In this document: positions 20,546 to 53,664 of the stretch, piece after piece
Layout: every line of letters begins with the position of its first letter
How positions within the stretch are numbered: the first letter of the stretch is position 1
Source: Opisthocomus hoazin
Lineage: Eukaryota; Chordata; Aves; Opisthocomiformes; Opisthocomidae
DNA: 64,000 nt
Reading direction: 5' to 3'
NCBI RefSeq assembly: GCF_030867145.1
Contig: NC_134431.1
Span: 10,369,089 to 10,433,088 of the forward strand
Notes under the pieces: generated by a model
Told to the model about the DNA's origin: nothing
Seen by the model: the letters and a program-made list of their open reading frames with translations, nothing else
Database searches by the model: none
Translations under genes and position numbers: made by a program

Positions 20546-20884
20546 GGCAGGATAAGGACCAGGCAAGGAGGACTGGGCTGCAGAGCAAGGGAGCTTCTTC
20601 CTGCCATGGGACCCAGAGCATGAGCTGTTCTGCATGGAGGTGAGATGCATACGGCCCCCACTGTCCTTCTCTGCCACATTTCCAGACGTTCTCCCTCAAT
20701 CCCTTTTCAATTTAACTTCTTGCATTTTCACAGGGCTTCCCAGAAAAGCAAAATTAAAACACAAAAAGTTATTATGAGCTAAAAATACGCAAATTTGCAG
20801 AAGACCAATTCCTTTCTAGAGATGTTTCTCAAGGGAAACACTGATAGCTCCAGCTCTGGAGTCCCCAGTACAGGAAAAACATGG

Positions 20885-29800: not shown

Positions 29801-32800
29801 GTAATACTTGTTGAGCTGGTAGATTTTTGACTTTCTTCTGGGCTTTGCTGGTACCTTCTTCTATTATATTTCTTAACTGTATTTTGACACATTTTCTTAA
29901 TGGGAGGAAGTAAGCTTTCTGGTGCTTGTCAGTACCTTGTGCTTTCTGGAAAACAGGGATCTTCTTGCATCTTGGGTGCTAGATTGTGAAAATCTTTGAG
30001 CTGTTACTCAGCAGAAAGAAAAGCATTTCTTCCTGCAGGCATGACTCCCTGAATTTTTAAATAACTTTCTTTGGTGCAGACCACATCACATTACTAGCAT
30101 AGCAAAAGGTATTGAAGCTTAAAGAGGCATTCACTTGCAAAGCCCTGTTTGAGTTTCGATATTTCTGTGCAGCTGCAAAACAAGTAGAGCTGTAAGAAAT
30201 CTCTCGTAGTGCTGGTATGGATTTCCTGGGTATTGCACGCACACCTCGTCTTTGTAGGAGCAGCATCCATCAGACTTCTGTGCATTTATGCTTCTGTCTA
30301 CCACAGTGTGACATAGAAAGATCAGAGCAGCTGCAGATCATCCTGACTTACTTTGTCATCCCCATAGAAAACATGCAGTGTTTGATTCACTATTGACACA
30401 CATCTCTTTCCTACCCTGCTTTCATTGTTGCCATGGACAGGTGAGATGTCTTGTGTATCATCCAGTGTCTTGAGAGGTTTGAAAAGCACATTACTATCCC
30501 TTCAATATCCTTCCTCTTTGTACACAAAAATCCAGGTGAAAGGTGTTGGTGTGGACTTCTAATCAGGTTAGTTACCATTGTTATTAAAGATAATCTAAAT
30601 TTAAGCATAATCCCAATTAAAAATGCAGCAGTATATTAATTGCTCTTACTGGCATAGTTTTGGATTTTCTTTACCGTCATTCCTTGTATTCTGCCCCAAG
30701 CCGACTACTGGGCAGTGCTGAGCTGAGGTGTTAGGCAAGCTTGCGTCACTGCTCCTGCTGAGCTTTGCAGAGAGCAGCAGAGGCACAGGCATTCTTCTCT
30801 CTCCGTTTCTTGTTCTTGGCATCTCAGCATCAGGACAAGGATTTTGGCTGTGCTGGTGTGTTCTGCGCTCCTGTCAGTCACAACAAAACCTTGTTCATGA
30901 AATGGTAAATTTTCATGCTAGGGCTGTCACTGCTACTGAAGATGGGTAAGAAGGAGCAGCATTGCATCTCTTGTGTTTTCACACAGAGGACATATAGGAA
31001 GCTTGCACAGTTGTGGTGTGGACCACAGCATAGCTGTAGTCTGTCTCCCAAACCAGACAAGATGATCCCAGCAAATGCAATTCCACCAAGTCAAGAGAAT
31101 GTTATACCCAGAAGCAATCCAGCTAACAGATGTCCTGTGTCACTTAAGGCTTATTTATTTAGTTTATTGAGTCAGTCGTATTTAAACTGCTGTCAGCTCT
31201 GTTGACAGGACACGGCATCTGTATAATCGTTGGCATTGCCAGCTAATTGCTGGTCAGTGAACCTCTGTTACTGGTAATGATCTATGCAGCTGCAAGAGCA
31301 CAGTTTGAGTTTCAAGTATCCAGTTTGACTAGCAGTGCCAGAAGTGAGGTGTGTCCGGCTTTGAGTTGTGAATTAAGCAAATGTTCTCAGGCAGTTATTG
31401 AAGGCTAATAAAAATGGCATCAGAGAATATGAGTATGATTTTTACAACTGCTTTTCCTCCTGTTGTTTAAGCTGCTCAGAACCTTCTGTTTTAAGATTTC
31501 TAGGGCATGTTACTCTCCTGGTGGACAGGGTGGGAGTGCATTCTCTAAGGCTGGATTTTGATTTTTGTCCGTAAACGTTACTGGTATTTTATGGGTAAAA
31601 ATAGTTGCCAGAAAAGTTTTTGTCTTTGATTTGTTACTGACTTTTAACACGTTATCAGGAAAAATAAAGGTTGGTTGTAATAAGAAAATTCCTATAACAT
31701 TTTCAAAAGAATGAGGCTTAGATTAACTCTTACAGACTTAGCTTTTGAATTAGCCTCTTGACGAAACTGATCTACTTGATTTAACAGATGGAACCAGTTG
31801 AACAAAAACTGTGTTCAGTTATCTAGTAATAAAAGAAGAGTAGTTTGTAAAGGTGTGGGGCACAGGTTTTAAAACCAGCGTCAAAGTTTGATTCTGTTAA
31901 ACCCTCTTGGTGATACATTATTTTGTGCAGCTCTCTTTCAGGACTTGGCTTAGCATAATCTTAGTTTAGTAGTACTGTTGTGTGTAATGTGCAGCTAGAA
32001 GTAATTTGTGCTATATAAAGGTGTAAGCTGTACGATTCAGCCTCATCCTTTACTAACCTACTTAACCTCTGCTATTGCCTTACATTATTAATATTGTTGC
32101 TCATTTAACTTTTTATATCATGAAAGGACCTCCTTGTCTGTCTGTGACATTGTTGTTAGGGTTAGTTTGTGATTAGCTCTTCCATCTAAAAAAGAAATTG
32201 AGACCAGCCTTTTACTTAAGCCTCTTGAGCTCGTAGGGTAGGGATGCCCAGCTTGTAGCCCACAGGCCATGGGTGGCCTACTCGCAGGAGTCCAATTTCA
32301 CAAAGTTGCCCTGGACTTCTTCCACTTCAGCAGAAGTGAGTTAAGGATTCTCGTTTCTTTTAAATCCCCTCTGAACATGGCTCTATGTGAGGGCTCTCAA
32401 TACTGATTCATAAAATACTGAAAGTTTCTTCAGGAAGTACGCTTCCTGAGGTCTGTGCTTTCAGCTCTATGGGCTCTGGTTGTTGTGGTCTGGTTTTCCC
32501 CCACATAAACTTCTTGTTAAGTGAAACAAGTGCTGCCTGTACCAGTTGAAGACAGTGTTGCTGCTCTTCAAAAAATGGAATTGTTCTGGTCTGTGGCTTC
32601 TGACACAGCTTCCATCCCAGAATGGAAAGCCTGACTGCTAGTACTGAGACCTGTGTTTATATGGCATGTGAGTGGCTGTGTCTGCCTTCTGTCCTCCTGC
32701 AAAGAACAGCAGACCTTTGATGTTCCTTCGTTAAGGTTTTGCTCTTCCTTTCCATATAAACCATTTCAGGGGATGATTATTTCTGTTCTCTGGGACCGAT

Positions 32801-35800
32801 GCCTTCACATACTTTTGTATGAAAGAAGGCTTAAGCCTCGTGGCTTTGTGTGTATGACACATCCGTCAGGAGGAATCCACGTGATGCTATTTGTAAGACT
32901 CTTTTGATAGCTACAGCATGAGAGAATAAAAACACAAGAGTTACAGGAAAGCATACGTTAGGCTTCTCAGCCACATTTTACCTTTCATTCAATGTATTTC
33001 ACTTCTACATCCCAGTGTTTGACTATGAAGTCTCTATTCTGTAAATAATAAAACACAACTATGCAGAAACACAGATCTGGAATCTGAATAAAGACAAATT
33101 CCTCATAACTACTTGAAAGCAGTTAATGACAGTTCATGAATTAACCTTCATGACTTCCAGAAGAAATCTTGTTAGTTTGGAGTTTTCTGTCTTACCTGTT
33201 TGAAGGTATATAGGAGGAGAGAGCACAATAACCTTTAACCATTGAGTTTGCAGCACCCTTGATAAAGTTTTTAACACAAACTCAAATTTGTGTTTCTGCA
33301 TGACTTAAAAGATGTGTAGTTCATTTGGGAAATAGTTCTGACAGTGTCTCCACCCTGATCAGAATTTGTTATCTACTTCATTGCCAATAAGTGCTGTGAT
33401 TTCATTGAGACACAGTTCACTTCTGTGGAGAACACTGATTTCACTTAAGCTGTGTTAACACTGCAAATAGCATTGAAGTGACATGAAGGTGGTGTGCTGC
33501 CACACAGATACCTAACTTGTAACTTGCTGATTCTTTAGCAAAGGTGGAATTTTATTGGAGTGCAGCTTCAATGAGAAGCATTTTCAAGTAGTTAAACCTG
33601 TTACCTTTGTGAACCAGTGAACACAGCACTTTCAATGTATGTGTTCAGTATCTGGGTATCCCAAGCGACAATCTCTTATGTAGGGAAGCTATGTAAATAT
33701 GTAACTTACTGGAAACTGTCATATATCGGCCCCCAAATCACTTTGTGTTGTTGTGACTTAGGAATGAAAGACTTGCTGCTTTATATTTTGCCTTGTTTTC
33801 ATGTTTAAAAGTTTGTTGACTGAGAGTTGATAAACAGTTAGTGGAAACAGTGATGTGTTCTGTGAATATTTCAGAATGTTATCTTATTCTCTCCTAGGTA
33901 TCCTTATGGGAGCTTTTATAAAAATCATAGAGGCTCAAAAGCTGGCCAACTGGAAGGTATATTTGGAGCAATTAATTTTTAATTGTAGAGCAATCCTTAA
34001 ATGTTTAAAATAAGACTGTTTGTAATATTAGTTTCTTTAGATATAATTTCCAAAAACTTATGTACATTGTACTTGATGCCAAAGCTTGGGGTTCTTTTAA
34101 TAATAATAATACAGCCAATATGAGGTCCTGATCCTGCTGAACATTTTCTACACAATATTTTTTTCCCTGAGTATTTTTTTTTATGGTACCAGATCTGTTC
34201 TTGTCACATATATGGTAGAAGGTGGTACTGGGCATCTTTGGGATCAGTTACAGTAAAAAATAGAGCAATTCAGTTCTTTGTCTTCTATACTTTTTGACTG
34301 TATTTAATCCTCTTCCTCCTTTTAATTTTGTAGGTGTTTACATAGAAAAAATGTGTTTTGATAGGTTGTAAAGTCACATGTTTTACCTGAAGATGTTAAC
34401 AGACATAAAAAGGGGCACTGCTTCAGAATAGCTGTGCTAAAAGTCACATTATTTACTTATTTTATTTACTTGAAACTGCAACAAAGTGTGGTGCTAAGAA
34501 CAGACAGTTCACAAAGCAATCCATTCAGCATGGCCTGTTTCTTGGGTACTCCATGGCTTCTTGTGGAAAGACTGCCGAAACCAATATGCCTGTAGCAGAA
34601 GCGTTTTTCACGCTGGCTGAAACAATGGAAACATGATTTGGACTTTATTTTCAGTAGAAAAAACAGGCAAAGCTTCTGTGCAGAAGGTTGTCCTTGTCTT
34701 GGTGCCCAGAGCTTTACGGAGTTAGATATTAGGACGAAAATGTTAACAGTGATGGCAACCAAACACAGGAACGTGTGTCCAGAGATATCATGGGAATCTC
34801 CATCTACAAAGATACTCAAAACTTGTCTGGATAAAGCCCTGAGCAACTGAAGTTGCTCTGAGTTGGCCCTGCTTTAAGCAGGGGCTTGGATCAGACACCT
34901 CCGGAGGTCCCCTCCAACCTGAAGTAGCGTGTGATGCTATGAGGTCTTGTCTGTGCGTGTGTGGAGTTACAGAGGTTTCCCCAGGCAGGGAGGATCCTGG
35001 CAGAAGTGTCCCAAGAGGTGAAGTCTGCAGTGAAGCAAGGATTTTGCATCCTGCAGTTTATCCTCACCATCCAGGCAATGAACTCTTCACTATTCCTGCT
35101 TCAGTTTGAAATCTTGCAGTATTGAAATTGTGATTTTGTTTCATAGGATCAAACAGTTTATTAGGATTAGATCAGGGAACTGACTGAAATCACAGTGATT
35201 TGAATGACCAGTTTTAAACAGGATTTATATTAGCAAGCTGAAAATCTTGATCTGAGTACTGGATATTAATCCTAGCTTGCAGCTTAATGTTTCTTGGCAG
35301 TTATATCCCTAAAGGAAGATTTTTTTTTTCTGCTTAGTTGAAATACATTAAAATGTGTAGCTTTTTCAATCAGATGTAGCTTTTTAATGACATATTATTC
35401 TTTTTTTGTCAACTAACTACACTAATTCTGTGTACATTCATTTCAGCAATTACGTAGTTCAAGAGTCGTGATATTTCATTTTTACGTATTTACTTATTAG
35501 AAACAGTGGGTGGTGCACTGGTTAGTGTTTTTTTCATTTCATTCCTGATTTGTGTCTACTGGATTTGACTTAAAAATCGAAAACAGCCACAAAATCAGCA
35601 TTTTAAAATAGCTTCTTAATGGTTAAATAAAATAATCTGAAGCAGATCAGATTAGGAAGATCTATGTAGGAAGAAAAAAGAAAGCTTAAACTATGCTATG
35701 ATTTGAGCACTGGTTCTGTGAACACAGGAAATATTTATCATAGCTAGTGAATTACACAGTTTATTTCTGGTAAGCGCTATTCAGATCTTGGGAGGCACTT

Positions 35801-38800
35801 GGGATGCTGCGTCCTGTTGGCCACATTATCAGCTAAGGTAAAGGGTCACAGATATCACATTATTATTTACTTATTTAAGTTACTTTCACTGTATTAAAGC
35901 TTAGGTTTTAACATAGGCTGTCATAATTTCAGATGCAAAATGTTCTAATCAATTATTATTATGGACTTTATAAAATGGTTTTAAATGGTTTTAGATGTTT
36001 TTAAATTTACTAGAGAGTTTTTGTTTATCTAGTATGGAAAAAAATAGAATATTTTACTGCAGGCTATATCTGTGTACAAAGCAAATCTTGGATCATATTC
36101 CTGCCCTAAGAACTTTGTAGTGTAATTTCTTGTAATCATGCCTTGCTAAGTCTTCAGTGGACCTTGTACTTGCTGGTGATCCTTGCTGGCTAGCGTGGCT
36201 GATAATCACAATCCTCTTGTTTTACTTTCCGAGTCTCTGCTTCAGTGCGGCCAAATGCAGCCCTTCCTTTTCATTGTTTCTTACCTGCTTGTTCAGCTTT
36301 GCTTTCAGGGGCTTTTAAACAGTGTTATTAATCAGGTATGTGTGGTTTTTGGTCTAGTGCAGTTACTGTATTGACAGAAACTAAGTAGTGTTAGCCATCA
36401 ACGCACAGAATTGTGCATGCAGAATAATGGACTAGAGCATTTCAGTATAAAGGATGAGTTTTATTTTCTAAGTCCCCCAAATCCTTTAAGATGATTATCG
36501 CTGGTACAGACAAGAATGAGACTTTAAAGAGATGAGTATTTCTTTTATGAAAGCTGGTGTTCTAACAGAACAGTCAATCAGCTGTTTCAAACACATGAAT
36601 TGTTGCTTGCAAAGGTGACAGGTTCTGCTGTATTCAGAACTGTGGGGACCAGGAGGGAGCCTCGTGGGTACGGAGAGGCACATTCAGCAGTGACGAATTT
36701 GCCTTCTGTGCTTAGTCTGCCAGCAGAAAAAAGCAGGGTGTCAGTTTGGGGTACAACTCCATAAAGCAGTGTTAGCCAAGTGATGAGAGAGGTGACAAAG
36801 AGTAAGGTCACCAAAAAGTAAGATCTTACTTCATGGTAGGTTTCAGTTATATCACTCTGGTGGTAAAAAGGAGCCATCAGAATAATACCATTAAATTACA
36901 GGCATAAATTACATTTGCCAAGAAGAATCAAGCCTCAGACTCAACAGTGGTGTATATCTGGAGCCTGTGCACTTGCAAGTGCACTAAGATGATCTGATTT
37001 CTTCTTCTCAGGTGATGAGTTTTCTAGTGAAACTATACTTGGTCACAGTTAACCTAGATAATATTCAAACCAGTGGCCAAGAGGTCACCGTTCCTTGACA
37101 GTCCTTACATATTTTGAGACTGTGAGATAAAATGGGAATATTTTCTGTGGAAACAGAAGGACTTTTCCTTTGCCGTAAATAACCTGTTTTCTGTGCAGCT
37201 TATTTGGAGACAGTAATTTAAAAGAAGTAACACCTAGATTTCTATCACTGGATTAAAAAAACCCGAATAGAAGTAGCGGCCCCAGAGTAGTTTACTATTC
37301 TTCAGTCTTTTTATTTTGTGCTAAGAAGGGAGAAAGATTAATGCTATTTTCGTTTTCCAACGTTTTGGGGTGATTTTTTTTTTAATAGTTTCTCCTTTAG
37401 AAGATTTTATGTTATTTCAGTAATTATGACATCCTTGAAATTATGCTTCATTTTTGTTTTGCAGGAAGAAGAAATGTTTCGTCCAAATATGTTTTTTCTC
37501 CTTTTGCTTCCACCTATTATATTTGAATCTGGATATTCATTGCACAAGGTTAGTCCCTGTCAGACACTCATTTTACATGTTGAGGTTTTGTTTGGAACTT
37601 ACATTCTGCTTTTAGTTATCTTCATGAAGTTTAGAATAATTGCATTAAATTCCATCATATTAATCATCAGGGAGTGAAGAATGCAAAATTTAAGCCTCTT
37701 CAACCCAGAATGCAAGGAATGTAGCTTGTTGCTGTGAACTGAATGTTGGCAAGGAGTTAGGTACTGCGCAGAGGTTTTTTTCCGTGGTTGGAGAGGTTTC
37801 CTACCTCCTCAGAGCTGTACAAGGGCTGATGTGAAGGACGCAAAATGGGAAGGAGTAGGATCAGAAGTGGGAAAGGTGGCGTCACTCTCTAGCTAAAGAG
37901 GAGGAAAATGTTTACAAGGGTTTTTACCCTTTGCCTGGGAACCTGTGCTTCCATGGACATTTCTCACAGCTGAAGTGGTTTTGGTTCTCCCTGTGTGCTG
38001 CCTTTCTACTTGAGCTGTGTTGCAGGAGAGGGAGCGAGCAGTGGGTGATAGTAATATCGTTAACTGCTACCAACACTGAAGATGTTTTCATACAAAATCA
38101 CAACCTGAGAAATGGAGTAGCAACTGGGAAGTTTACAAGCCTTTTTTACATTCCCTGTCTACAATAGATGGATTAATATACCGTTCTGTCAGGTGGGGAA
38201 CGTGTCAAAGTGCTGGTGAGCATCCAGCTGTTCGTCTGAGGATTGGTTTGTTGCTAGGGTACCAGACTGACATCCTTCCTGGGTACCAGAGGGATTTGCT
38301 GTTGTCCTCAAGAGAGCGGGCTCTTTAGGCAGCGGGTGTGGATGTATGTCTTGGGGTACCTGGAACCAAACTAATGAAGCTTCATTATCAGAAACCCAGT
38401 TGTGAATCAGAATCTAATCTAGAAGAAAACCCAAACATGAGTTTTCCGTCAGATCATTTGCACTAATTTACTTACTTTATTGTTGTGTTGCAGGGTAATT
38501 TTTTTCAGAACATTGGTTCCATCACTCTGTTTTCCGTATTTGGCACTGCAATATCAGCTTTCATTGTAGGTGGAGGAATTTATTTTCTGGGCCAGGTAAG
38601 AATAACTGCTTTGAAGTCCTTAAGTTTATCTGGCTTGCTCTTTGAAAGTCCATTTTTCAAGAGCAGACAAACAGTCAAAGTGAATTCCTGGGTCAAAGTT
38701 CAGTTCTCTGCTATCACAGAGGCAATGTTATATAACCCCTTCCATAGATATAGCATGCTCCATGTGAAAAGCAATTAAGACTTGTGTTGACTTTTTTTTT

Positions 38801-41800
38801 ACTTACTCAATATTCCTGTCAGAAGGCTGTTCCAAAACCTGTATTCTCTAGAGCCATCTACTAATTTCCTGTATTAAACTTATTTGTCCTTTTGTCAATA
38901 TCTTTTTTCACTTCACTGCTTTGAGTGTTTCCCCATTGATTCGATATAGACATAGATAATTGTATTTTCTCTCAGACTTCATTCTGGTAGGCCAAACAAT
39001 CCATACCATCCTCTTTGCCTCTCAGATTTCCATTCCTTTGAATGCCTTAGTTACTCTACTCACCTGTGTCTGTTCCAGTTTCATTTGGTCTTCCCTGATG
39101 TTGGGTGACTAGAATTGTAGCGGTAGATCACTGTTGGAGGGCAGTGTTAAACCGGGTAACATCGCTACTGTGACTTTTTTCATGATAACACACTTAGGAT
39201 TTGATGAATAGTTCCATTTTTAAAAACAGCAGAAAAACACAGTTGATTGTGATTTTTTTTTTTTTATGTTTTACCTATTCTTTCAGGCTGATGTAATTTA
39301 TAAACTCAACATGACAGACAGGTAAGCTCTTGGGGAAATGGTGTAGTATATGAAATGAAGCATTCTTCAAGATAACTGTATATGAGAAATGCACTGTAGT
39401 TGGCCAGCTCTGCTGGTTATTGTTTAGATTGCTTAGATTCAATATGGTATATGAAACTAATAAATAGATCAAACACTTCTAAACCCTATTTATTACACAC
39501 TTCCATATACTATTCTGTGCTCAGTGATTTTTCTAGACAGGAAAGACACTGGTATTTTTTAACCAACCTTTAAAGTTAAAATCTGTGATTCTGTGATTAG
39601 TTGGTATTATTAATGTATATGATAAGGGAATAACTTCCTTGTCCAAATCTTCTCTTAAAAGACAGAATGAGTTTTTCAGTATCAATAACATAGATTTTTC
39701 AAGAACCTGGCAAAGAATCTAATCATTTTTTTAGGAGTGCACCACCTACCATTAAATAAAGTTCATTCCTGGTTTATTTGGGATTTTTTTGTTTCTTTAT
39801 TGTATAGCAAATACAGCAGTTTTGTGTTAAAATCCATAAATAACTCGGGTGGCAAGCAAGAAACATAACAAGTAAAACATGCATGAACAGCAAAAATCTT
39901 CCTTACTTGCTTCCAGTGTCTGACTTTACACAGCTGAGCAGTCCCCTTGCCTCTGTATTGTCTATCTTTGGGTTCCAAAGTAATGAAGTGTTAGCAGTTC
40001 CCTGTAAATGTTCATCTCTAGTACTCCTGAACAGGTAACACTATGCACTTATGATACATGGTTTGGGCTGGGTCTGTGAAGTTGTTTAGCTTCCCATTCC
40101 TCTCATTTTTTATTACTTAGTTGGAGTAAGACATTGATACTGTTGTTGAGAGCTGGGAGATAGGTATTTCTTCAACATCTCTTCCAGCTTTGGTATATCA
40201 GTAAATGAAAAACAAAACCTTCCATTTTGTCACCTCAAGTTCTTATGAATGGGAAGAGAGCATAACTTTTCACTGTGTAGAAAACTGTAACACATAACGT
40301 CTTTGTTACTAGTTGTTCATGTAAGTTTACTAGGTACATATTTTTCTTTCATCTAGTTTTCTTTTTTGTTTTGTGTTCTCCCAGTTTTGCATTCGGCTCT
40401 TTAATATCTGCAGTTGACCCTGTAGCTACTATTGCCATTTTCAATGCCCTCAATGTGGATCCTGTACTTAACATGTTGGTTTTTGGAGAAAGCATTCTCA
40501 ATGATGCAGTCTCTATTGTCTTGACCAAGTAAGTGCATTTAAACTACATGTGTGTATGGAAACAGCAACCACATGATTTTCTGTTAATTAGTTTATTCAG
40601 ATATTCAGTAATTCTTCCATCTCTGTTTGGAACAAACCGTGCATTTCTGGTGTGAAGCTGAATTTTGTATAATCCTTCTTTGTTAAAAGCAATCCATAAC
40701 ATAAACTGCAGAGGCAGAAGACAGTAAATGGATGTCTTGTTACCACTACCTCTGTGCCTCATCTCGTTGACCCCAGATAATTGATTGCGTTCTGAGTCCA
40801 TACGTTTACCAGCTCTCTTTCCATCTGAGGGTCCTGACAACAGAAGACCAAACTGTGTCCTTTCAGGCTTGCACAAAAATATTTACCTTGCCAAATAACA
40901 CAGCTGCGTCTCCTGTATCATGGGCTTATACCCAGAGTCACACTTGGGGGGGGGGGGGGGGGACGAAGTTACATCAGCATCCATGCAGAGTTTTATATTT
41001 ACGTTGGGGCTATCACAGGGAAGAACAACATCCAATGTCCTTATCCTTTGCCCACGATAATTCTTAGAGGCTGAAAGAGTAAGAAAAATATAGAAATATC
41101 TTCATGTTATTGTTGAAGTCAATACATGTACTGTGAGTGTATAGAAGGAGTAGCTATACTAAGAAGGTGGTGAAGTTAGAGTAGTTTTTCAATGAACTAA
41201 CTGCTTTTTAATACAGTCGTGGTTCTTTTATGGAAGACCATGAAGGCTAACAGCAATCAAAAGGAACACTAGTTAGAATCCGTGTTGTCTTTGCATGGAA
41301 TTCTATGAAATACATTCCTGATATTCAAAGAGATTTCTCCCCTTTCCTCCTCAGAGCTTCTTTGTTTTTCTTCAGTGACTTTCTTGTCTCTCATCCACTC
41401 CTAAATATTTGATGAGAGGTCTTCCTGTTCATTTGTTCTTCTCTGAGGCTCAAATGATCCGTCTCTTTTTTATTTTCCATGTCCCAAGTTTTTACCACTG
41501 CAAAAGGTGTTTTCCTTTTCAAAGTTTGAAAATTGTTTTGTAATACTGGGCATTATTGTAGCCTATTTATGCCATTCTGGGGATTCTTCAGAAGAGCCAT
41601 GCTGGATTTCCAGATTTTTAGCAGAATTAGGTTTCCCTTTGGGGATTACACTAAGACTTGATTTAACATCTTTTGACATGCCTCTTGTTATATATACGAC
41701 AGTAAAGCCTTTTAAAAGTGGTAGCAACAAAGAAATGAAAGTCTTTGTTGTTGTTCTCAAAAGATGTTTGGTATTTTTGAATCCAGGCTTAGAATTTATA

Positions 41801-44800
41801 ACCGTTTCTTTTTATTTCTTTTTTAATATCTAGCACAGCAGAAGGTTTGACAAGAGAAAGTATGTCAGATGTAAGTGGATGGCAAACCTTTCTGCAGGCA
41901 CTGGGATACTTTCTGAAGATGTTCTTTGGCTCTGCAGCGCTTGGCACACTTACCGGTCTTATTTCTGCATTAATATCCTTTTTTAATTTTGGAGATATGC
42001 ATGAATACATTGGTGAACTTCAGCATTCTATTAGTATTTTTCTTTCCCATCTTCTCCAGCATTTCTTAGGGGTATTTCTTATTAGACATTATTTTGTTGG
42101 CTGAGGATTTTCTCGTGCTCATTTTATGTTAGTGTACGTGGGTGTGTATTAAAAAGTTGCATCAAATTTTTATGAACATAATTAAGGTCTGAAATGCTGT
42201 ATAGTAGCTTACAGTATGTGCATTGGAGTGTTAGAAAGTATGGTAATTGTTTTGTAAATTCAAAATATATTAATTCCATTTCAGTGCTGATCCATTTTTA
42301 CAAGCATATGGCTCCTTTTTTACATACATCAAACAGTTCATTAAAAAGGTAAAAAAAGCTGCTTTTCCCCAGGGCTTTTGAGTCAGACCAGCTCATTTGT
42401 CCCTATATATCATATCCAGGCAGCTGAATGCAGATGTGGTTCTGTTTGGATTTATGTTGAGTTACATTTTGCCTCTTCCACTTCCATGATTTGGTTGCTA
42501 AACAACTCAGAAGCTTCTCTACTGAGATACGGAAGGATATTTGTTGTAAGTCAGACACCTTTGTTCCTTTTCAGAGCTTGTTCAATGTTAACACTGACTT
42601 CACTGTAGGTAGCCTTTTGTGCTAGGGTTGTATAGCAGTTACTCATGTCATCTGGGACATACTGTTAAGCACTTTGTTTGTAAATAAGAAGAACAGAGTG
42701 TTTGATTAAATACGGACATATTTCCTCTCTTGGTTCATTAGCCTGATTCTATGAACTTTTAAATTATCCCATACATCACAACAAAAGAGGCAGACAGATG
42801 TTCAACACTTCGTTCACTGATACCTAAATGATACAATACAAAAAAAGCTTATTTGCCATATTACATATTTGTGCATCAAAGTACTGGATTTACCCTAAGC
42901 ATGCAAAATTTCAGTGCAGCAAGGGACATCTCTTATTAGTTGCTAGCAGATAACTATAGTTGAAGGTTGTAGCTGGTTCATGACCCAGGAGGAATGTGAA
43001 CTTCCATGTCACAGGCTCTAATCCTCTGGATTTTAACAAAGACTATAGGTGGAGTATTTTAAGTTTAAGGTAAGGATATGATTGAAGGAATATTCCTCAC
43101 TGTTAATATTACTGCAAATCTGTCATATCTGTTTGAAAGTAACTAGAAGTCTAGGGACTGAACAGAGGAGATTGCTTGCATGCTTAGTGCAGCAAATAAC
43201 GATGTTTGAGGCAAAATCTGCTTGTACTTGGCAGCTGTGCTGCAGAACCATGCGTGAGATGGAAAGCAGAACTTGCGGCCCTTGACAAATGTTCACGTTT
43301 ATGACTATAAATGTAAAATAAGTTTTTAAAATCTTGAGTATTGAAAGGACATTATTTTGGTTAAAACATAAATGAGAGCTAGTTTACTTTTAATTTGCTG
43401 TTTCATAGCTCTCACCTATTTTTAGAAAAGCCTTTCGTATTTAATGATTCTCTGGATTTTCTGCACTGGTTTTGGAGCAGAGATTTCAAAGACTGAACGT
43501 GTAGGGAAATGGCCCTTCTAGATCCAAACAAACAAATTTGCATGTTGTTGCCAGTATTGTATAGGCACATCAAAAGCAGATCGTTTCTGTGTCTAGGTCT
43601 GTCCATTCTGATAGACTTCCGCCAGCAGTAGCTTCTATAAGAAGTACTTCTCATAAGAAATTATTAATCTTTCCATACTTGAATTCAAGGCCAATGTGTA
43701 GATTTTGTTAGCTCTTCAGTAGAGAAGTACATTAAGCAGAATCATTGTTTGGTAATGTAATCACACAGATTTAAATTTTTCTTTGAAAGTTTTTTAATTT
43801 ACTTTTTCCATAACATTTTCATGTGTACGTGCTAAAGCACATTGATTTAAGGAAGACACCCTCCCTAGAGTTTGGGATGATGATTATCTTCGCTTACCTT
43901 CCTTATGGACTTGCAGAAGGTATCTCACTCTCAGGTGAGTAGCAAAATGAGTATGTGCAAGTTAATTTGATAAATTTAGGGAGTAGGGATTGTTTGTGTC
44001 TAAGAGGGCCCCTGTTTTTTTACGTGTTTTCTCATTTAACCTGTGCTCTTACTTTTAACTTTGACTTACTTTAAAGAAACACTTACTCTTTACTTCATGT
44101 TATAGGAGTATAAACAAGGTAATTGCAGTTTTCATAAGAATGTTAGCCAACACAAATACTAGTATTCTCCCTGGTTAACCTCTGTCTAACACAGAATTAA
44201 AATTCCAGCTGCATGCTGTAGATCTCAGCCTCAGCCACATCAGCTAACTTAGATAATGTCCAGCCTGCTACCCTGTAGCTGTTTTTCTGCCTGTCCTTCA
44301 GTGCCATTGGGGAAGTTAGCTGAGACTAACTGAGTGTTGTATAGATCTCTGAGTACTTGGTAGCAGTTTTGCTGAAGGCCATGAGAAGAGGCTTACAGGT
44401 GAACTTCTTCCATCATTCTGTAACATCAAGTACAAAGACAGGGTCCAGTTCTGCTGGATGCCCAATGTCTCTGACCTTTGCCGATTGAAGTGGTTTTTTA
44501 AGGCAATCAGCTTCATGTCTCATTTCTCAAAGGCAACTGGGAAGGGGTGCAGCAGTTAGTATAATTCAAATAGCTAGGGAATCTGCGTGGTTCTTTTTTT
44601 TTTCTTGTCTTGTTTTGTTTTTTGTAAGTTTTAAGTGCATTGAAAGATATATTTGCTCTACATCTTGGACTATATAAGACTGTCACAAGTTTGTGAGGAG
44701 TAGTAGCAGGACTAGATTTCTTGTGAGCGAGCTGTAGGTATGAAATCTGACTTTCTGAAAATGTACATGTGAGCTAATGAATATTGTGGAATGTATTGTA

Positions 44801-47800
44801 GCAGTTTACATCAGCATACCTTCACTGGTGTCAGTGGAGTTGTATTTTTTTGTACGCATGAAGATGTGGCCTGTAGTCATGGTAGTTAGTTAGACATTCA
44901 AGATGTATAATCCTAATGCAAACATTCCATTCTGCCCATTTGCATCCAGAACTACTCTGTATGTGTGTATAGGCCAACACATAAGTAGGGGAATGAAATT
45001 ATATGAAACCTGAGCAAGCAGTTTGATACGTTAAAATATTTGTATTGCTGTAAAAACAAGTTTTGCTTTGTGAGATGATTCTGGAGGGTCTCAGCACATG
45101 GCCTTTTCTATTTCTAATTTATATTGCTTATTAATATAAGATTATGATAAAATATTACAGAATTACAGTGCCATTGCATTATGTAACCAACACATCAGTA
45201 TGTTGGTATCCAATGAAAAAGAATTTACAGTAAGATTTCTAGTTAGTTACTCTCGAGGTTCTTTGTAATTTTATTTGTAAAGACAACCTCTCTAATTTGC
45301 TAACGTGTCTTCAGGAATGACTTATCAAGAAATATAAACTTTGAAAGACCGAAGTTGGGTCACCTCTGTGTTTCAAACAAAGGATTCTTTCAACTGTACC
45401 TCAGCTATTCTAATCCTCCCAAGTTGTGTTCATCTGGGCCACTCCTGGGCACATAGCTCCAGCCAGACACCTCTAGTTGTTGAAACTTGCCTCGTTTTAG
45501 GCAGAGCAGGCATACTCCCACATGTCATCCTGTCCTCTTGAGATCTGCATTACAATTGATTTCTTATAGGTTATATTGTCAGTTTTGGTCAGTTATTTCC
45601 TCACAAGGAGTACTGTAGTTGTCCTTCAAGTGGACTGCTAAATTTTTCCACAGTCCTAACCATCATCTCCAATGACATCCTTTGCAGGTGTAACTCTGTG
45701 CAGCAGCTGTGGAAACGCTTAAAACTTCCTTTAAGATACCCAGCTCCCCGTGAACAGTGAACAACTGACAGTGTCTGTGATATGTTGTGAGCAGTTAGTG
45801 AAACAGGCTGAAATTCAGATTCTTCCCATAAATAACCAAGAGCTGGGAAGCAAGGTAGATGAAAAAAATTCCTAACACAAATCAAAGGTTTGTGAAATGC
45901 ACAGAAATCTGAGGTAGCTGTTCTGGCCTGTGATATCAGTTGCTGTACCTCTGTCCTAGTTGTGCATGTCATTAGGACAGCTGATTTCTATAATGGAAAA
46001 TTTGGTGGCTTTTCCCATAGTTGATTGCTGAGATTAATCTCTGTAGTAACTTACAGCGGATGGTTTAGTGACCCTGTCAGCTGGAGGCAAGCGACATTCT
46101 GCACAGTAGCATTCCTTGCTGGCCCTACATATTAGACTGTACCTTCCTTACGGTTGGACTCGATGATCTTGAAGGACTTTTCCAACCTGAGTTATTCTCA
46201 CTCCTATGAAGGTAATTTTTGCCCTGAATGCCTAAGTCCCAATAGCTTTTCTGATTCGCAGATTGATAGAAAATTGGGGGTACACCTGTGTGCGCGCTCT
46301 TTGTTCTTAATTTTTTATGGTATTAGATGTGGTGCACCATACTGGAGTGGATTCACACCCATGCCCTGTTGGTCTCATTCTACTTCTGTTGGTGTGATTG
46401 GGCCTGGCTAGTCAGCAAGTAGCAAAGAATGACACTCTCTGGGAGAACTGAATCATACAGTTCTCTAGCCCCGCTATTCTCAAATTGTTCTTATTCTTCT
46501 TTTGAACTCACCTCTACATGTTAGGAGAGTGAAAAGCAAGAAAAACACTGAAGAAATGGCTTTTTATTTCCCTCACTTTTATGGGAAAACGTGACATAAC
46601 AGGGACTTATTCTAGCTTGCAAGTGACATATACTGGACATCCTAGTATTTATTATGACCAGTGGAATGAGACCAGTATGAATTACAACGGTAATAGAAAT
46701 CCCACTTACTGTTTCATAAGCTTTTGCATTAGTAAAGGCTGTAAACACAAATATTTGCAGAGTGCAAGCTGATCTTCTTCTTTTGACTGCCACATTTTTA
46801 TCTACAGGTATCATGGCAATCCTCTTCTCTGGCATCGTGATGTCTCACTATACACACCATAACTTGTCACCCGTCACACAGATTTTAATGCAGCAGACAC
46901 TGAGAACTGTTGCTTTCATGTGTGGTAGGTGCTACCTGCGATTAGTATTGAATATTAACAGTTTAAAATTTTATTTGCCTGAAATGGTGGTTCTGATGGG
47001 AGCAGCAGAGGTGTGAATTTTCCTCTAGTCATTTGTACGTCAGTGCTACATGTCTTTAAGAGAAGGATTCCTAATAGTGAGGCTGAAAGGCAGTCAGAAG
47101 TCACCTTTCCTGCCATACTGGATAAAACATACAGTAAATCTCTTTCTCCCATCCTGCAGGCTGCTACTAAGATTTGTCACAAGATTGATGACCAAATAGA
47201 GATCTCCGACTCCTGTATTCCTCTGGTCTATTTTTAGTTTTAGGAGATGAACTTTTAGCGGAATTTTTTAAAAATTGTTTTGGATATAAAAAGCTACTTG
47301 CAAAAGCAATAGCTTCACAAATGGAGAAGAAGGTTTTGGAAGCAGTGATACAAGCAGCTCAGAGTCCCATATCCTTTCAATTTCCTTTTACAAGCCAAAC
47401 TTTTGAAGAAAGAGCATGCTTCTGTATTACAAATATATTCTTGTTTTTTTAGGGGATGGCATGAATGTGTCCATATTGTTTGCAAGAAGATGTATTTGGA
47501 ACATGATCAGGGAGTGGCCTTGCTGCAAACTAAACTTAACCACTCGTTACCTGAGCACCAGTAGCTCATTGGGATTTGGTCTTAACCTATTACATATGCT
47601 AAAAAAGCACATACTCATTCAGGTCACTGTAAAGGAGTTATTTAAGATACTGTGCAGTTTCGTACATGTTTGCAGCAGGTTTTGAACATCCAGATGTTAA
47701 GTAGGCAGTACCCAAAGCATGACCCAACAATATCTTATGCTGCAATAACTTGGGTATTGCTACCGTCTGTCCAAAATCATCCTGTTTCTAGCTGTCTTTG

Positions 47801-50800
47801 TGATAAAGAACCTGCCTTGCTAGGACAGCAGTGAGCCGACGAAACATCTTGACTCTGCGATGCTTTGATGCTAATGGGTTGGTGCTGTGGAAATAAAATG
47901 TTTGGGTTACTGCAGTCATTGTGCAGTGGTGGTACCATTTCAGATTTGCAAACATCACTTCTAGAGGTTATCAGAATATACAAGGGTTACTAGATCATAC
48001 AGTGCAGTATTTTATTACAAGGAAAGTCACGAACTGATGCCGTTTATAAGAATTTAATGGATTGAATACTTTATGATAGTGTTCAATTTGCAATATATGA
48101 GATTGTGCCTGACATTTCAGCTTTATGTAGAATCTCATTCAAATCTACAGAAGTTGTTAGTCACTCCTGTAGCTTGTGTTCTGCAGCTTGTCCTATATTC
48201 CTCAATTAAAAAATTCCTCAGTCTTTAGAACAAGGTTTTACTAGCTTTGTTCATACTCGTTAGTAATTTACGACTGAAAAAAGCCTATACATACCGACTA
48301 AGGTGCTGTCCACTGACAGCGGGAGTGGAAGAATCTTGCCTTTTGCCTAATGGCATTTGTGCCTATTTTGCGCACTCAAAAGTCAGGAAATATTACCTTA
48401 TGTACCATATGTAGTAACTTATAACAGGAGTAGAAAAGGTTTTACAGAATTGTTTATTTAAGATGTGATTTCTCTTTTTCAGAAACATGTGTTTTTGCAT
48501 TTCTTGGCCTGTCAATTTTTAGTTTTCCTCACAAGTTTGAAATGTCCTTTGTCATCTGGTGCATAGTAGGTATTCACTTTCTTCCATACGTGTTTAGATG
48601 CATTTTTGGTATTGGGGAGGGGGGAAAAACATCTTACAGTTAAAATGTTTTAGAATAGGTTTATATGAAAATCTTTTATATTTTTATATGTTGCACAAAG
48701 TTAACTCTCACTAATAGCATGAAATCATTCTTCTTGTTCTCAGCACTTTGGTGTGCAAATACATCAGTCTTCTTTAAGGAATTCCAGTTTGCTGTTATTT
48801 TGAAGCCCTTTTGTATAAGATTATTAAAACCAAGGAAAAGAACCTTGCTTGTTTTGACCCTAGTAGATTTATTAAAATAAATCTCAAAAGACGTTGAGAT
48901 TATTATACATGCCAGTTAATTCCAGAAGTTATTTTACCAGAAAACAATCCTGAGCTTTTATGTATCTTTAGCTTCATATGAATGATTTGTGCGAATGGGA
49001 GGTTCTTAGAAAATGCAGTGCAAACTAGTATCAAACTCTGCTCCATTTCATCTCTCCAGGACTACAGCCTTTGAGTCTTTCTCTTTCATAAATCATTGCA
49101 GTTTGTTTACATAAATCAATTTAGTCTGCCCATCAACTCTTCACTCTGAGCTCACCTTCTTCAGAGGAAGTCCTTAGTCAAACATTCTCCAATGTGTATT
49201 CAGTCTTTGACTCCATTCTTAATTCTTTTTCTTTCATTCTGTATTTCACCGTAGCTTTGTGTAGTGGCACTTTGAATTATGTTTCACGTGGGGGTTACCT
49301 ACATCTGTTGCTATTATAATTGTTTAATGTAGATGTGAAAAGTATGTTCTGTTTCGCAGAGTCAAAAGAGGGAAATGTGAATCCATTTCCAGTTGCGTAC
49401 AGCAACATATATTAGCACATTTTAGCCCATGGTTCAAGGGATGAATTGTTATCTGCAATTTACGGATGCATGAGGAACTGCTTTCACTGTACACCCAACT
49501 TCCTTATCTAATATATATCTAAGGTGTGACATTTCCTTCTGTGCAGCATTGCCCTCACAGGCATAATGCAAATTGCGTAATTTGGGGGTGATTCATAATG
49601 GAAAACAGCACAGCGCTTCAAGGATCCTGCTGACTAATTCTAGGATATTTACCTTATCAAGGTCTGTTTGTTGTGGAGCTTGAAAGCAATGCCACTGTGA
49701 AAACCTTTGCTTTTCTGAGTGAAAGTTTTCACTGTATTTGTTAATTGCCTTCCATTAAATCAGTAGCACTTTTTTTTTTTCCCCTCTCAAGCTGTTGCTT
49801 CAATGTGTGGTATATTTTATAACCAGACCCAGGAAAGTGTTGAGGAACCAGATTACATGTGTTCGGCTTCTGGCCTTTTTCTCTGAGGAACTGGTCCACG
49901 GGGAGACAATGGAAGTACCTTATTGCCTCTTAACTGCTGCGCCAAGGGAATGATTAAAGGAGCTGAACTGACTGAACTGAGGAGAACTTCTACCCAGAGT
50001 AATTCTTGGTCTCCCAGGAATGCCTCTTGGGTTTCATTTATTTATTATAAGTAAAGTAGTGTCTGGTCTCTGTCAGTGACAAGTCTGGTTTATTTTCAGT
50101 TAAGCAGACAAAATGTTTAAAAAGTTAAATTCCACAGTGACCTATGCTGAGAGATTTCTTTCTGTTAGTTTATCAGCACACCTACTTGCAAGACTAGCGA
50201 GTAAAAAGAGCGTATTCACCTTACCCTGTACAAACCAGATGCAACTTGGGCCTGCATGAATGTAACACATAAAATGGTCTTTTGCTTTTATTTCTGTTTT
50301 TCAGGTACTTGTTTTGTTTGGTAGAGCAGTGAATATTTTTCCACTTTCCTACCTGCTCAACTTTTTCCGTGATCATAAAATCACCCCAAAAATGATGTTT
50401 ATCATGTGGTTTAGTGGTAAGTTAAAGCTCAAAGTATGGAAAACTGGAAAAAAAATATCTTATTTTTTTGGTGCGTGGGCCACTATGGGAAGAACTAGTT
50501 TCCCATTTGTGGAGTGAAACTCAACTGAACAATTGTGCTGTTATCAAACCCAAGTGCAATAGCTATGTTCTCGTTCCCCTTAGTGTCAGAGGACTATGCA
50601 GTTGTGATCCCCACTAAAGCTTTTCTGCAAAGAGTCTACTTTTCTTTCTAGGTCTAGCTACTTCACAGTTTGAACACCAGTATCTGAAGAGTTCAAATCC
50701 ATTTTAGGGTGGTAACCAAATGATAGATAAATGGACACAGTATAGGATTGTAAAAATCTTTTAAAGATGGAGAATTTCTGCTGAGTTACCAGAGTGCTGA

Positions 50801-53664
50801 GGACCAATGTAGCTGTTGATTCACGCTTCACTGATTTACTCTTCTCTCTGATAAGGTCTACGTGGTGCAATTCCCTATGCCCTCAGTCTCCATTTGGGCT
50901 TGGAACCAATAGAGAAGCGCCAGCTCATTGGGACAACAACAATCATCATAGTACTGTTCACAATTTTGCTGCTGGGAGGAGGAACCATGCCCCTCATCAG
51001 ACTGATTGACATTGAGGACTCCAAAGCACGCAAGAAAAACAAGAAGGACATTAATCTTAGCAAGACAGAGAAGATGGTTTGTTTGGGTTTTTCATTCAGA
51101 GGATCACTGGGGGGTTCATTGGTTGATTTGTTGGGGTTTTTTTAATTCTTACATTTTCCAAGACTAGTACATTATTTTTTACTGAAAAGTAAAATGAAAG
51201 CAATAGAAAAAGCCAGGGTGGTAGGAAAAAGCCAGGCAATGTAACTTTAAAATATCCCAAAGACAGAACTTGGTTAGTGTTTACACAAAATTACTGTTTG
51301 GACAAAGGGAGGAGAAATAGTTTCTTAATCTAGTTATAAATTGATCCATACAAATTAAAGTAACCCCTGCAGAAGCATAAAGCAGATGATACAGGACTGA
51401 GTCATATACAGAAGGAAAGTAGCTAGTACAGTGTGAGTCATGAATTAATCATAAAAGGCAGATGGGAATTATTTTGAAAAAGGCAAAGCAAAGGCCATGA
51501 GAAGGTGGTAACAACAGCACCCCTCTGACTGGGTTTTATTTTAAAGCTATTTCTGGCTAAGCTGGAGTACTGAAGAAAACTAACAGCCACTCTGAAACCT
51601 CACGTGCAAAAGGCTGGAGTACATGGAGTATCCCAGCGCATTTGCCTGTTTTTCCCCAAACCATCAAACGATACATGCAGGGTATTGTTCTGCAGGATCT
51701 GAAGAACAGCTCCTCTTGACGTGAGGTTTCAGAAGGCTTGCAGTCTTTAGAGTTATCTTACTCTGTCCATGTAGGGAGGTGTGCATAGGAAGAGCACAGG
51801 AATAGGGTGTGTTTTCAGGGCTTATTTTCAGTGAGACAGCAACATCAGTGTTGCTTGCTGGGTAAAATCCTTGTCCAGCTCACAAGAGAAAACCTACACG
51901 CTAGAAATCCGGTCTCAGCAATAGCAACAATACAAAATATGGAACATTGGAGGTCTTTTACTTTCAGCATGACAAAGGAAGCTAAGTGGCTCTGGGAATC
52001 AACAGCTGGACAGATTCTTACGGCCATAAGCCCTGGTAGACTGGGGTGATAATTTCCATCTTGTTCCAGCATGGGAACTGGTTGTGAGAAGGGAGAACAC
52101 AGAGCAGGGGGCTGAAGCAAGCTGGAGGGATGACTGCCACATTTCTCAGGTTATTCCAATATTTGTGATCTTTCTAGGGAAATACCATAGAATCCGAACA
52201 TTTATCAGAGCTCACAGAGGAGGAATACGAAGCCCAGTACATAAAACGCCAGGACCTCAAAGGATTTATGTGGTTTGATGCCAAGTATTTGAATCCGTTC
52301 TTCACCAGAAGACTCACACAAGAAGTAAGTCTGTCTTCTTTTCTTGAAGAAAAGAAACTGTGGAAGAGTTGGTTGTCACTTCACTGCGTACCACTCCAGG
52401 CTCATAGCGTAGCCATGCAACTTCCACATGAGGAACAGTGAGCCATCTAATGTATTGTGCATATGTAGAGCAGCTGTAATGAAAAGCTGCACTGTATAAT
52501 TGCAGGTTGGTGTAAATGAGCATCTCAGGGCTACCACAATCAAACTTTAAAAAGTGTATGGATTTATTGAACTCACCTTTAAGAGTACCATGAAGAGTAT
52601 GAGGAGTTACCAGTTACTGCTGATGCTAGAAAAAGCTGCTGCCACTCATGCAGAGTTTTTAAAGCGCTGTCACTCAAAGTTGCTGCCATTTACTCTACAT
52701 GGTCCCGTGAATTCTGGAGTTGTGATTTTCTTCTGCAGAGGAGTTTTTATCTTGGAAACATGCACTAGACTTTGTAAGACTTTTTCACTGGGAGACCAAG
52801 TCTTTGCAGCTGTAAATGCAAAATGACACCTGACTGAACATGTAACTTAACACTGAGTGGCTCTGAGAGGTGTAAATACTATGCCATTTTCACTGCACGC
52901 CTCAGAAAGCTGAGACTCCTTGGCTGTACATTTCACTGTTTCTCCAGTTTGCCATAGAATTAAGCATTTTTCTGTGGAGTTGATAATTTTGTGTAAAGTG
53001 TGCACATGCCATCTTCCTAGCCTGCACAAATAGACAGTTTTTCCCCTTGTTTCGTACCTTTCTTTCAAAAAGAGTGCTGTCAGCACTTTCCCACAAAAAC
53101 TAAAAGCACTTTTTGCAAAACCAAAAAGGAATCAAGAAAAAAGAGTAAGATCTGATTTGTGGTTGGTAGCCAAAAGCACAGGCTGCCAACTGGATTGCAA
53201 CCAAAGGCTGGAAAACTAAGTGTGACTCACCAGAGCAGGCCACAAGCTTCCCGCTGGCCCTGGGAACACTTGGAGAGGAGTGACAGTCAAAGCCAGGCCA
53301 TCCAGACAGCGTCAGGGTTGTTGAAACCCATGGAGCAGGACTGTCTAGAAAACACAAGTGAAAATGCCTGTCATCAAAAATACTGTCTGTGGAAATAATT
53401 CCTGGTTGAACACTTGATAAATATTTTCTCATAGGAAACAGAATTGCTTTGCATGCTTGGACACCAGGAGTAGATTATTTCCTAAAGAGTGTGTTAAACT
53501 AGTTTTTCCCTTTTGCAAGTAGTGTTGTAGCTGATTCTGGTTTGCTTTTGCCTTAGGACTTGCATCATGGGCGCATACAGATGAAAACCCTCACAAACAA
53601 ATGGTATGAAGAGGTACGACAAGGACCCTCTGGATCTGAAGATGATGAGCAAGAGCTGCTATAG
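23562..53664 (+). CDS. SLC9A8: SLC9A8 / NHE8 sodium-proton exchanger, complete 16-exon gene (coding span)
   Basis: Joining the 16 exons listed below gives 1725 nt, that is 574 residues plus TAG, with every junction in phase. The protein is an NHE8-type Na+/H+ antiporter of Golgi/endosomal membranes, also apical in epithelia, that exchanges luminal H+ for cations and sets organelle pH. Visible signatures are N-terminal sequons at N6 and N13, the first clear membrane helix at about residues 53-73, and GGGIYFLGQ. The [12 protein letters not shown] motif includes V193-D194-P195, and the ion-binding GESILNDAV includes N222-D223. [11 protein letters not shown] carries R419 of the conserved NHE TM11 motif. 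A cytosolic tail from about residue 465 ends SEDDEQELL. Against the 581-residue human protein as I recall it, only the first ~20 residues differ in length; the rest aligns without gaps. Intron 9 is AT-AC (U12-type). The start at 23562 has A at -3 and G at +4 and matches the second Met of the human MGEKMAE start. Confidence 0.96.
23570..23990 (+). other. SLC9A8: SLC9A8 intron 1
   Basis: A GT-AG intron of 421 bp, mostly CpG-island sequence. No separate feature is seen inside it. Confidence 0.85.
23991..24169 (+). CDS. SLC9A8: SLC9A8 exon 2, residues 3-62
   Basis: The acceptor is CCCGGCAG and the exon starts with the base that completes Glu3. It encodes the luminal N-terminus with sequons N6-A-T and N13-V-T, the conserved KPILPVQTG and [17 protein letters not shown] at the start of the first membrane helix, and ends one base into Ala63 before GTGAAT. 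Confidence 0.94.
27552..27607. repeat. TTGATTCTTG-rich short tandem repeat
   Basis: The unit TTGATTCT recurs about five times with variable spacers of T and G in about 56 bp. It is a degenerate microsatellite or slippage product within SLC9A8 intron 2. Confidence 0.65.
28070..28372 (+). mobile_element. CR1 LINE 3' fragment in SLC9A8 intron 2
   Basis: The sequence reads through the CR1 landmarks GGAGCCAGACTCTTCTGAGG, AATTCTTCACCATGAGACTT, AAGCACTGGAACTGG, CTTGACTGGACAAGGCCCTG and GTTGGACTGGATGACCTCAA, and ends in the tail TTTTCTGATTCTGTGATGA. The orientation is the same as the gene. It is truncated and non-coding. Confidence 0.9.
28848..28928 (+). CDS. SLC9A8: SLC9A8 exon 3, residues 63-89
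   Basis: The acceptor is TTCACAG after a long polypyrimidine tract, and the donor GTGAGT follows one base into Gly90. It encodes [20 protein letters not shown] and VAVVSL, the end of the first helix and the start of the next, close to the human sequence. Confidence 0.95.
28929..33897 (+). other. SLC9A8: SLC9A8 intron 3
   Basis: 4969 bp, GT-AG. AT-rich unique sequence. A patch at 32240-32340 (GGATGCCCAGCTTGTAGCCC...) resembles old DNA-transposon-like sequence, but I cannot assign it. No exon seen. Confidence 0.85.
33898..33956 (+). CDS. SLC9A8: SLC9A8 exon 4, residues 90-109
   Basis: The acceptor is CTCCTAG and the donor GTATAT follows Lys109. It encodes [20 protein letters not shown]. Human has EFKKLANWK, so this exon carries a small conservative difference. 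Confidence 0.94.
33957..37464 (+). other. SLC9A8: SLC9A8 intron 4
   Basis: 3508 bp, GT-AG. It holds a CR1 3' fragment at about 34640-34945. The remainder is AT-rich and featureless by eye. Confidence 0.85.
34640..34945 (+). mobile_element. Old CR1 LINE 3' fragment in SLC9A8 intron 4
   Basis: Diverged CR1 landmarks appear in order: CTTGTCTGGATAAAGCCCTG, GAGCAACTGAAGTTGCTCTG, GGCCCTGCTTTAAGCAGGGG, CAGACACCTCCGGAGGTCCC and a tail GTGATGCTATGAGG. The orientation is the same as the gene. Confidence 0.82.
37465..37548 (+). CDS. SLC9A8: SLC9A8 exon 5, residues 110-137
   Basis: Phase 0 at both ends (TTTTGCAG before, GTTAGT after). It encodes [20 protein letters not shown] followed by ESGYSLHK. The [11 protein letters not shown] core is one of the most conserved NHE segments and forms part of the inhibitor- and ion-interacting TM region. 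Confidence 0.97.
37549..38493 (+). other. SLC9A8: SLC9A8 intron 5
   Basis: 945 bp, GT-AG. Nothing recognisable inside. Confidence 0.88.
38494..38595 (+). CDS. SLC9A8: SLC9A8 exon 6, residues 138-171
   Basis: Phase 0 at both ends (GTTGCAG before, GTAAGA after). It encodes [20 protein letters not shown] then [14 protein letters not shown], a membrane helix with the glycine-rich end typical of NHE8. Confidence 0.97.
38596..39286 (+). other. SLC9A8: SLC9A8 intron 6
   Basis: 691 bp, GT-AG, with a T13 tract near the 3' end. No other feature seen. Confidence 0.88.
39287..39321 (+). CDS. SLC9A8: SLC9A8 exon 7, residues 172-182 (35-nt small exon)
   Basis: A very short exon, TTTCAG before and GTAAGC after, encoding [11 protein letters not shown] and two bases of Ser183. 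It contains the sequon N179-M-T. Skipping it would shift the frame because 35 is not a multiple of three. Confidence 0.95.
39322..40384 (+). other. SLC9A8: SLC9A8 intron 7
   Basis: 1063 bp, GT-AG. Contains a possible CR1 tail at 39560-39600; otherwise nothing seen. Confidence 0.85.
39560..39600 (+). mobile_element. Possible CR1 3'-tail remnant
   Basis: AACCAACCTTTAAAGTTAAA is followed by ATCTGTGATTCTGTGATTAG. The doubled TCTGTGAT motif preceded by CCAACC is the pattern of a CR1 3' terminus. The piece is too short for certainty. Confidence 0.45.
40385..40528 (+). CDS. SLC9A8: SLC9A8 exon 8, residues 183-230 (catalytic core)
   Basis: TCCCAG before and GTAAGT after. It encodes [19 protein letters not shown], then [20 protein letters not shown]. 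It carries both the VDP unwound-helix motif (193-195) and the ND pair (N222, D223) that coordinates the transported cation in electroneutral NHEs, so the predicted exchanger is intact. Confidence 0.98.
40529..41833 (+). other. SLC9A8: SLC9A8 intron 8
   Basis: 1305 bp, GT-AG. Contains the G17 homopolymer at 40946-40962. Confidence 0.88.
40946..40962 (+). repeat. G17 homopolymer in SLC9A8 intron 8
   Basis: Seventeen consecutive G, preceded by CACACTT. Such runs are unstable, can form intermolecular quadruplexes and are common points of length error in assemblies, so the exact number should not be trusted. Confidence 0.9.
41834..41972 (+). CDS. SLC9A8: SLC9A8 exon 9, residues 231-277, ending at an AT-AC splice site
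   Basis: The acceptor is ATATCTAG and the first base completes Asn231. It encodes [20 protein letters not shown] then [20 protein letters not shown] and GLISAL. The end is set by homology: the family continues VLKHIDLRK, which resumes at 43829. The bases after 41972 are ATATCCTTTT, so there is no GT donor here. Confidence 0.96.
41973..43828 (+). other. SLC9A8: SLC9A8 intron 9: U12-type AT-AC intron
   Basis: This 1856-bp intron begins ATATCCTTTT, an exact match to the minor-spliceosome 5' splice-site consensus, and ends GTGTAC. The branch-point-like TTCCATAAC at 43806-43814 differs at one base from TTCCTTAAC and places the branch adenosine about 15 nt from the 3' end, the spacing expected for U12 introns. 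No polypyrimidine tract abuts the AC. The reading frame across the join (ISAL/VLKHID) fits NHE8 exactly. Confidence 0.95.
43829..43934 (+). CDS. SLC9A8: SLC9A8 exon 10, residues 278-312
   Basis: Starts after the AC acceptor of the U12 intron and ends at TCAG/GTGAGT. It encodes [20 protein letters not shown] then [15 protein letters not shown], matching the human protein. Confidence 0.97.
43935..46807 (+). other. SLC9A8: SLC9A8 intron 10
   Basis: 2873 bp, GT-AG, with a CR1 tail at about 46120-46209. Nothing else recognised. Confidence 0.85.
46120..46209 (+). mobile_element. CR1 LINE 3'-end remnant in SLC9A8 intron 10
   Basis: GGTTGGACTCGATGATCTTG, AAGGACTTTTCCAACCTGAG and TTATTCTCACTCCTATGAAG reproduce the last ~70 bp of CR1 (GGTTGGACTAGATGATCT...CCAACC...TTCTATGA). 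It is 5'-truncated and plus strand. Confidence 0.85.
46808..46924 (+). CDS. SLC9A8: SLC9A8 exon 11, residues 313-351
   Basis: TCTACAG before and GTAGGT after. It encodes [20 protein letters not shown] then [19 protein letters not shown], with the conserved HYTHHNLSP loop. Confidence 0.97.
46925..48482 (+). other. SLC9A8: SLC9A8 intron 11
   Basis: 1558 bp, GT-AG. No feature recognised. Confidence 0.88.
48483..48565 (+). CDS. SLC9A8: SLC9A8 exon 12, residues 352-379
   Basis: TTTTTCAG before and GTAGGT after. It encodes [20 protein letters not shown] then MSFVIWCI, a membrane helix pair. Confidence 0.96.
48566..50304 (+). other. SLC9A8: SLC9A8 intron 12
   Basis: 1739 bp, GT-AG. AT-rich unique sequence; no feature recognised. 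Confidence 0.88.
50305..50416 (+). CDS. SLC9A8: SLC9A8 exon 13, residues 380-416
   Basis: TTTTCAG before and GTAAGT after. It encodes [20 protein letters not shown] then [17 protein letters not shown], matching the family throughout. Confidence 0.97.
50417..50855 (+). other. SLC9A8: SLC9A8 intron 13
   Basis: 439 bp, GT-AG. The acceptor is the less common AAG (CTGATAAG). No feature inside. Confidence 0.88.
50856..51076 (+). CDS. SLC9A8: SLC9A8 exon 14, residues 417-490
   Basis: Encodes [20 protein letters not shown] and the last membrane helix ([20 protein letters not shown]), then the start of the charged cytosolic tail ([19 protein letters not shown]). R419 lies in the conserved GLRGAI motif. 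The donor GTTTGT after Met490 is weak compared with the other GT donors in the gene. Confidence 0.97.
51077..52177 (+). other. SLC9A8: SLC9A8 intron 14
   Basis: 1101 bp, GT-AG. No feature recognised. Confidence 0.88.
52178..52324 (+). CDS. SLC9A8: SLC9A8 exon 15, residues 491-539
   Basis: TTTCTAG before and GTAAGT after, phase 0. It encodes [20 protein letters not shown] then [20 protein letters not shown] and FFTRRLTQE, part of the cytosolic regulatory tail. Confidence 0.96.
52325..53556 (+). other. SLC9A8: SLC9A8 intron 15
   Basis: 1232 bp, GT-AG. No feature recognised. Confidence 0.88.
53557..53664 (+). CDS. SLC9A8: SLC9A8 exon 16 coding part, residues 540-574 and stop
   Basis: GCCTTAG before. 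It encodes [20 protein letters not shown] then [15 protein letters not shown] and TAG at 53662-53664. The C-terminal acidic cluster followed by LeuLeu is identical to human as I recall it. Confidence 0.97.
   Translation, partial: DLHHGRIQMKTLTNKWYEEVRQGPSGSEDDEQELL

Follow-up and report, generated by a model that had tools for sequence, protein, structure and literature searches.

The window, that is, the whole 64-kb stretch of DNA analyzed here, carries an NHE-family gene whose exons were assembled from the list of open reading frames. The resulting model of 15 exons displayed no internal stop over 571 residues and ended at a stop codon. The 5'-most coding exon, which would hold the start codon, was not located in the model; therefore, the exon join treated below is numbered 8/9 in our model, while a preliminary description of this DNA had counted it as 9/10. 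The following features were identified in the gene and upstream of it.

2025-3245, - strand: B4GALT5-like open reading frame containing MRWPRGPRGAWRLLPRRSLLAALFLFSLSSSFLYFVYVAPGI, which we take to be the first exon of B4GALT5
23991..53664, + strand: coding part of the NHE-family gene as recognised here (15 exons, 571 aa; 5'-most coding exon absent from the model)
40385..40528, + strand: exon 7 of the model, carrying the ND motif
41834..41972, + strand: exon 8 of the model, the exon upstream of the join, ending ...LTGLISAL
43829..43934, + strand: exon 9 of the model, the exon downstream of the join

The model protein matched TIGR00840 with 356.4 bits (cut-off 251.25) and the Na+/H+ exchanger domain PF00999 with 216.1 bits. 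Its best solved relatives among the 30 sequences listed were NHE9 (E 4.8e-81) and NHE6 (E 1.5e-76), and none of these 30 sequences bore the name of exchanger 8. The gene is very probably SLC9A8. We presume this identity from motifs that we associate with NHE8 and from the B4GALT5-like first exon, itself presumably of B4GALT5, which is located about 21 kb upstream of the SLC9A8 model on the opposite strand, so that the two are divergent.

Among the 14 introns of the model, 13 were of the GT-AG type and the only exception was the intron at 41973-43828. It is located between codons (ISAL|VLKHID), exon 8 terminating in ...TCTGCATTA at 41972 and exon 9 opening with GTGCTAAAGCACATT at 43829, and its sequence reads ATATCCTTTT...TTTTTCCATAACATTTTCATGTGTAC. 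The following signals were found at its ends.

41973..43828, + strand: predicted U12-type (minor) AT-AC intron of 1856 nt in phase 0
41973..41981, + strand: U12-type 5' splice site ATATCCTTT, 9/9 to /RTATCCTTT
43806..43814, + strand: U12-type branch-site word TTCCATAAC, 8/9 to TTCCTTAAC
43827..43828, + strand: AC 3' terminus, the intron ending GTGTAC

The branch site was scored as a nine-letter word, with its first T and the G variant, and TTCCATAAC deviated from it only at position 5, where A replaces T. The 5' splice site consensus /RTATCCTTT is printed in PMC2846911, and the branch consensus TCCTTAAC, located 10-15 bases upstream of the intron end, in PMC2426677. Between the branch word and the end of the intron 14 nt remain, which agrees with the earlier estimate of about 15 nt; this spacing is inside the 10-15 bases of PMC2426677 and slightly above the optimum of 11-13 nt given in PMC3584512. 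The sequence features by which a U12-type AT-AC intron is recognised, namely the 5' site, a (T)TCCTTAAC-type branch site and an AC end without a strong polypyrimidine tract, were thus all present, and the intron was located exactly at the join required by the protein, as had been described before. AT-AC introns account for 18% of the U12-type introns of chicken (table of PMC7367187).

The other 13 introns of the gene differed in each of these respects. Their best match to the U12-type 5' site was 6/9, compared with 9/9 in the AT-AC intron, and their best branch word reached 7/9, compared with 8/9. The share of pyrimidines at the 3' end was 0.59 in the AT-AC intron, the lowest of all 14, and ranged from 0.65 to 0.94 in the others; such a low share is what the lack of a polypyrimidine tract would lead one to expect. 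Across the AT-AC join the model protein aligned to NHE9 and NHE6 without a gap.

U12-type introns have been reported from this gene and from this gene family. SLC9A8 is named among the genes with a U12-type intron in a 2021 review (PMC8329584), according to which this intron itself seems to undergo normal splicing while cryptic sites of the U2 type are activated, and it is repeated in the gene list of PMC10565666. In the CENATAC paper (PMC8280824), the main text contained no mention of SLC9A8. The suggestion of the preliminary description that other NHE-family genes carry U12 introns was confirmed. An AT-AC U12 intron is present both in Nhe3 of the fly Drosophila and in human SLC9A7 (PMC2831892, where the numbers 5 and 12 in the table look like intron numbers), SLC9A9 (PMC4667643) and SLC9A6 (PMC6865273) are included among the minor-intron genes, and two U12 positions are common to plant and animal Na+/H+ antiporter genes (PMC2426677). 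The Nhe3/SLC9A7 intron shares its termini, class and gene family with the intron at 41973-43828 but belongs to another paralogue. The plant and animal antiporter introns share family and class, and they argue for great age. The human SLC9A8 intron is among the closest counterparts, belonging to the same intron class and to what we take to be the same gene. We infer that the two are the same intron.

Taken together, the evidence points to a U12-type AT-AC intron in an NHE-family gene, very probably SLC9A8, and most likely to the orthologue of the human SLC9A8 U12-type intron, with a probability of about 0.97. This reading is not new. Both the gene and its family are already in print as carriers of this intron class; the copy of this species is the only addition.

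The scan for alternative joins covered 90 nt upstream and 129 nt downstream of the site for donors, and 130 nt upstream and 90 nt downstream for acceptors. In the scanned stretch, 13 GT-AG, 23 GC-AG, 53 AT-AC, 43 AT-AG and 16 GT-AC pairs kept the frame and were free of stops; for AT-AG and GT-AC the analysis stopped at the count, and the comparison of protein identity covered GT-AG and GC-AG. No GT-AG or GC-AG pair in this stretch yielded the same protein. The earlier statement that no GT-AG sites exist is thus correct for pairs that preserve ISAL/VLKHID, but it does not extend to the frame-keeping, stop-free GT-AG pairs counted here. Only one frame-keeping AT-AC pair of the scan, 41973/43828, kept the protein length. 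A single GT-AG pair did so as well.

42013..43868, + strand: only equal-length GT-AG pair, both ends shifted by 40 nt and 13 residues swapped

The existence of this frame-keeping pair allows for a shifted twintron, in which the U12-type AT-AC intron would be the main one and 42013/43868 a minor or cryptic U2-type alternative. Such a latent twintron would yield an NHE8 isoform of equal length that differs in 13 residues midway along the transporter, and this isoform would make up a larger share once minor-spliceosome capacity becomes limiting. It is compatible with removal of the AT-AC intron by the minor spliceosome and does not exclude it. Cryptic U2-type splicing has been described in SLC9A8 (PMC8329584), and SLC9A7 is on record as having a twintron whose isoforms measure 725 and 727 aa (PMC3564746). 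However, the GT-AG sites are weak, and one equal-length pair is no surprise when 13 GT-AG pairs of the scanned stretch keep the frame. We consider the twintron very unlikely.

Removal of a neighboring GT-AG intron by the major spliceosome in place of the AT-AC intron would most likely use the same pair, which is stop-free and keeps both frame and length at the cost of the 13 swapped residues. The 82-aa segment produced by this join still matched NHE6 and NHE9, but it scored below the AT-AC version against all eight of the listed NHE chains (8/8). The values fell from 28.3 to 21.2 bits for the NHE6 chain 9s0r and from 24.0 to 14.9 bits for the NHE9 chain 8pxb, and the smallest drop, for 9s8g, was from 25.4 to 21.4 bits. 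The splice sites were also poor by the standard of this gene. The donor at 42013 (GTGAAC) matched 5/9 of the consensus, where the 13 GT-AG introns of the model reach 6-9, and the acceptor at 43868 (CCCTAG) had a pyrimidine share of 0.47, compared with 0.65-0.94. Moreover, such a splice would offer no explanation for U12 signals placed exactly at the protein-dictated join, and this alternative is very improbable.

Equally hard to credit is that the major (U2) spliceosome removes the AT-AC intron, a route known from certain sodium-channel genes. AT-AC termini by themselves do not establish the class of an intron (PMC2831892), but the U2-type AT-AC introns of sodium channels have a G at +5 (PMC2831892), whereas bases +5/+6 are CC here, and the full ATATCCTTT together with the near-consensus U12 branch word also opposes such a route. 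A GC-AG join was rejected, since the nearest in length among the 23 frame-keeping pairs (+26/+23 and -6/+9) alter the protein and have donors of 4/9 and 2/9. Coincidence was rejected as well, the joint chance of the signals at the protein-fixed join being about 2e-9, a rough, after-the-fact value under a local first-order Markov model.

It is the position of the signals that argues against a random origin. The 5' word ATATCCTTT occurred twice on the + strand of the 64-kb window (41973 and 47369) and not on the - strand, and its mean count was 0.25 in 200 Markov-random windows (+ strand only). A branch-like word of at least 8/9 followed by AC 8-20 nt later was found at 9 places on the + strand and 3 places on the - strand of the window. 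When ATATCCTTT was required to be followed by such a branch-like word and AC within 60-10000 nt, the - strand yielded no pair and the + strand yielded two, 41973/43828 and 47369/54248. Among the 200 random windows (+ strand only), 15.5% contained at least one such pair, with a mean of 0.425 pairs. Because of this frequency, and because the real window holds a second pair, a bare pair of U12-like words is weak evidence. The intron at 41973-43828 is non-random because its signals fall exactly at the join dictated by the protein.

The second ATATCCTTT, at 47369, is part of intron 10. In the scan it paired solely with the AC at 54248; the two join no exons of the model, and this pair is probably due to chance.

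Based on established knowledge of the minor spliceosome, U11 and then U6atac would pair with ATATCCTTT and U12 with TTCCATAAC, the branch adenosine being left bulged, and the minor spliceosome would join 41972 to 43829. How fast this splicing proceeds may set a limit on the amount of full-length exchanger mRNA. Retention of the intron would run the reading frame into a stop codon.

42102-42104, + strand: in-frame TGA on retention, 43 codons past the join

An intron-retaining transcript would thus add 43 residues before the TGA and would probably be degraded. The preliminary description had proposed that failure of the minor spliceosome removes the second half of the transporter. This is not simply the case, given the probable loss of the retaining transcript, and the proposal is further narrowed by the report of apparently unperturbed U12-type splicing and active cryptic U2-type sites in SLC9A8 (PMC8329584). 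The join had also been placed just after the exon with the catalytic ND motif, which is off by one exon. The motif comprises residues 219-220 and is encoded by exon 7, while it is exon 8 that ends at the AT-AC join, after residue 274 and 54 residues past the D.

The intron at 41973-43828 cleanly illustrates a rare intron class and contributes one more, apparently avian, sequence for a gene known to carry a U12-type intron; by itself it raises no new question. It also serves as a warning for annotation, as gene finders restricted to GT-AG would misplace the join, possibly to 42013/43868, where 13 residues would change and the frame would stay intact.

No Rfam family matched the window at the gathering score. 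The open reading frames at 15367-16176 (- strand) and 20820-21266 (+ strand) both returned no Pfam family. We take them to resemble the C-terminal part of a CR1-type LINE reverse transcriptase, which would fit a bird. A minisatellite whose repeat units measure about 20 and 61 bases (GGACACCCAGCAATGGCCTCA...) was detected by TRF at 3275-3807 and adjoins the B4GALT5-like exon.
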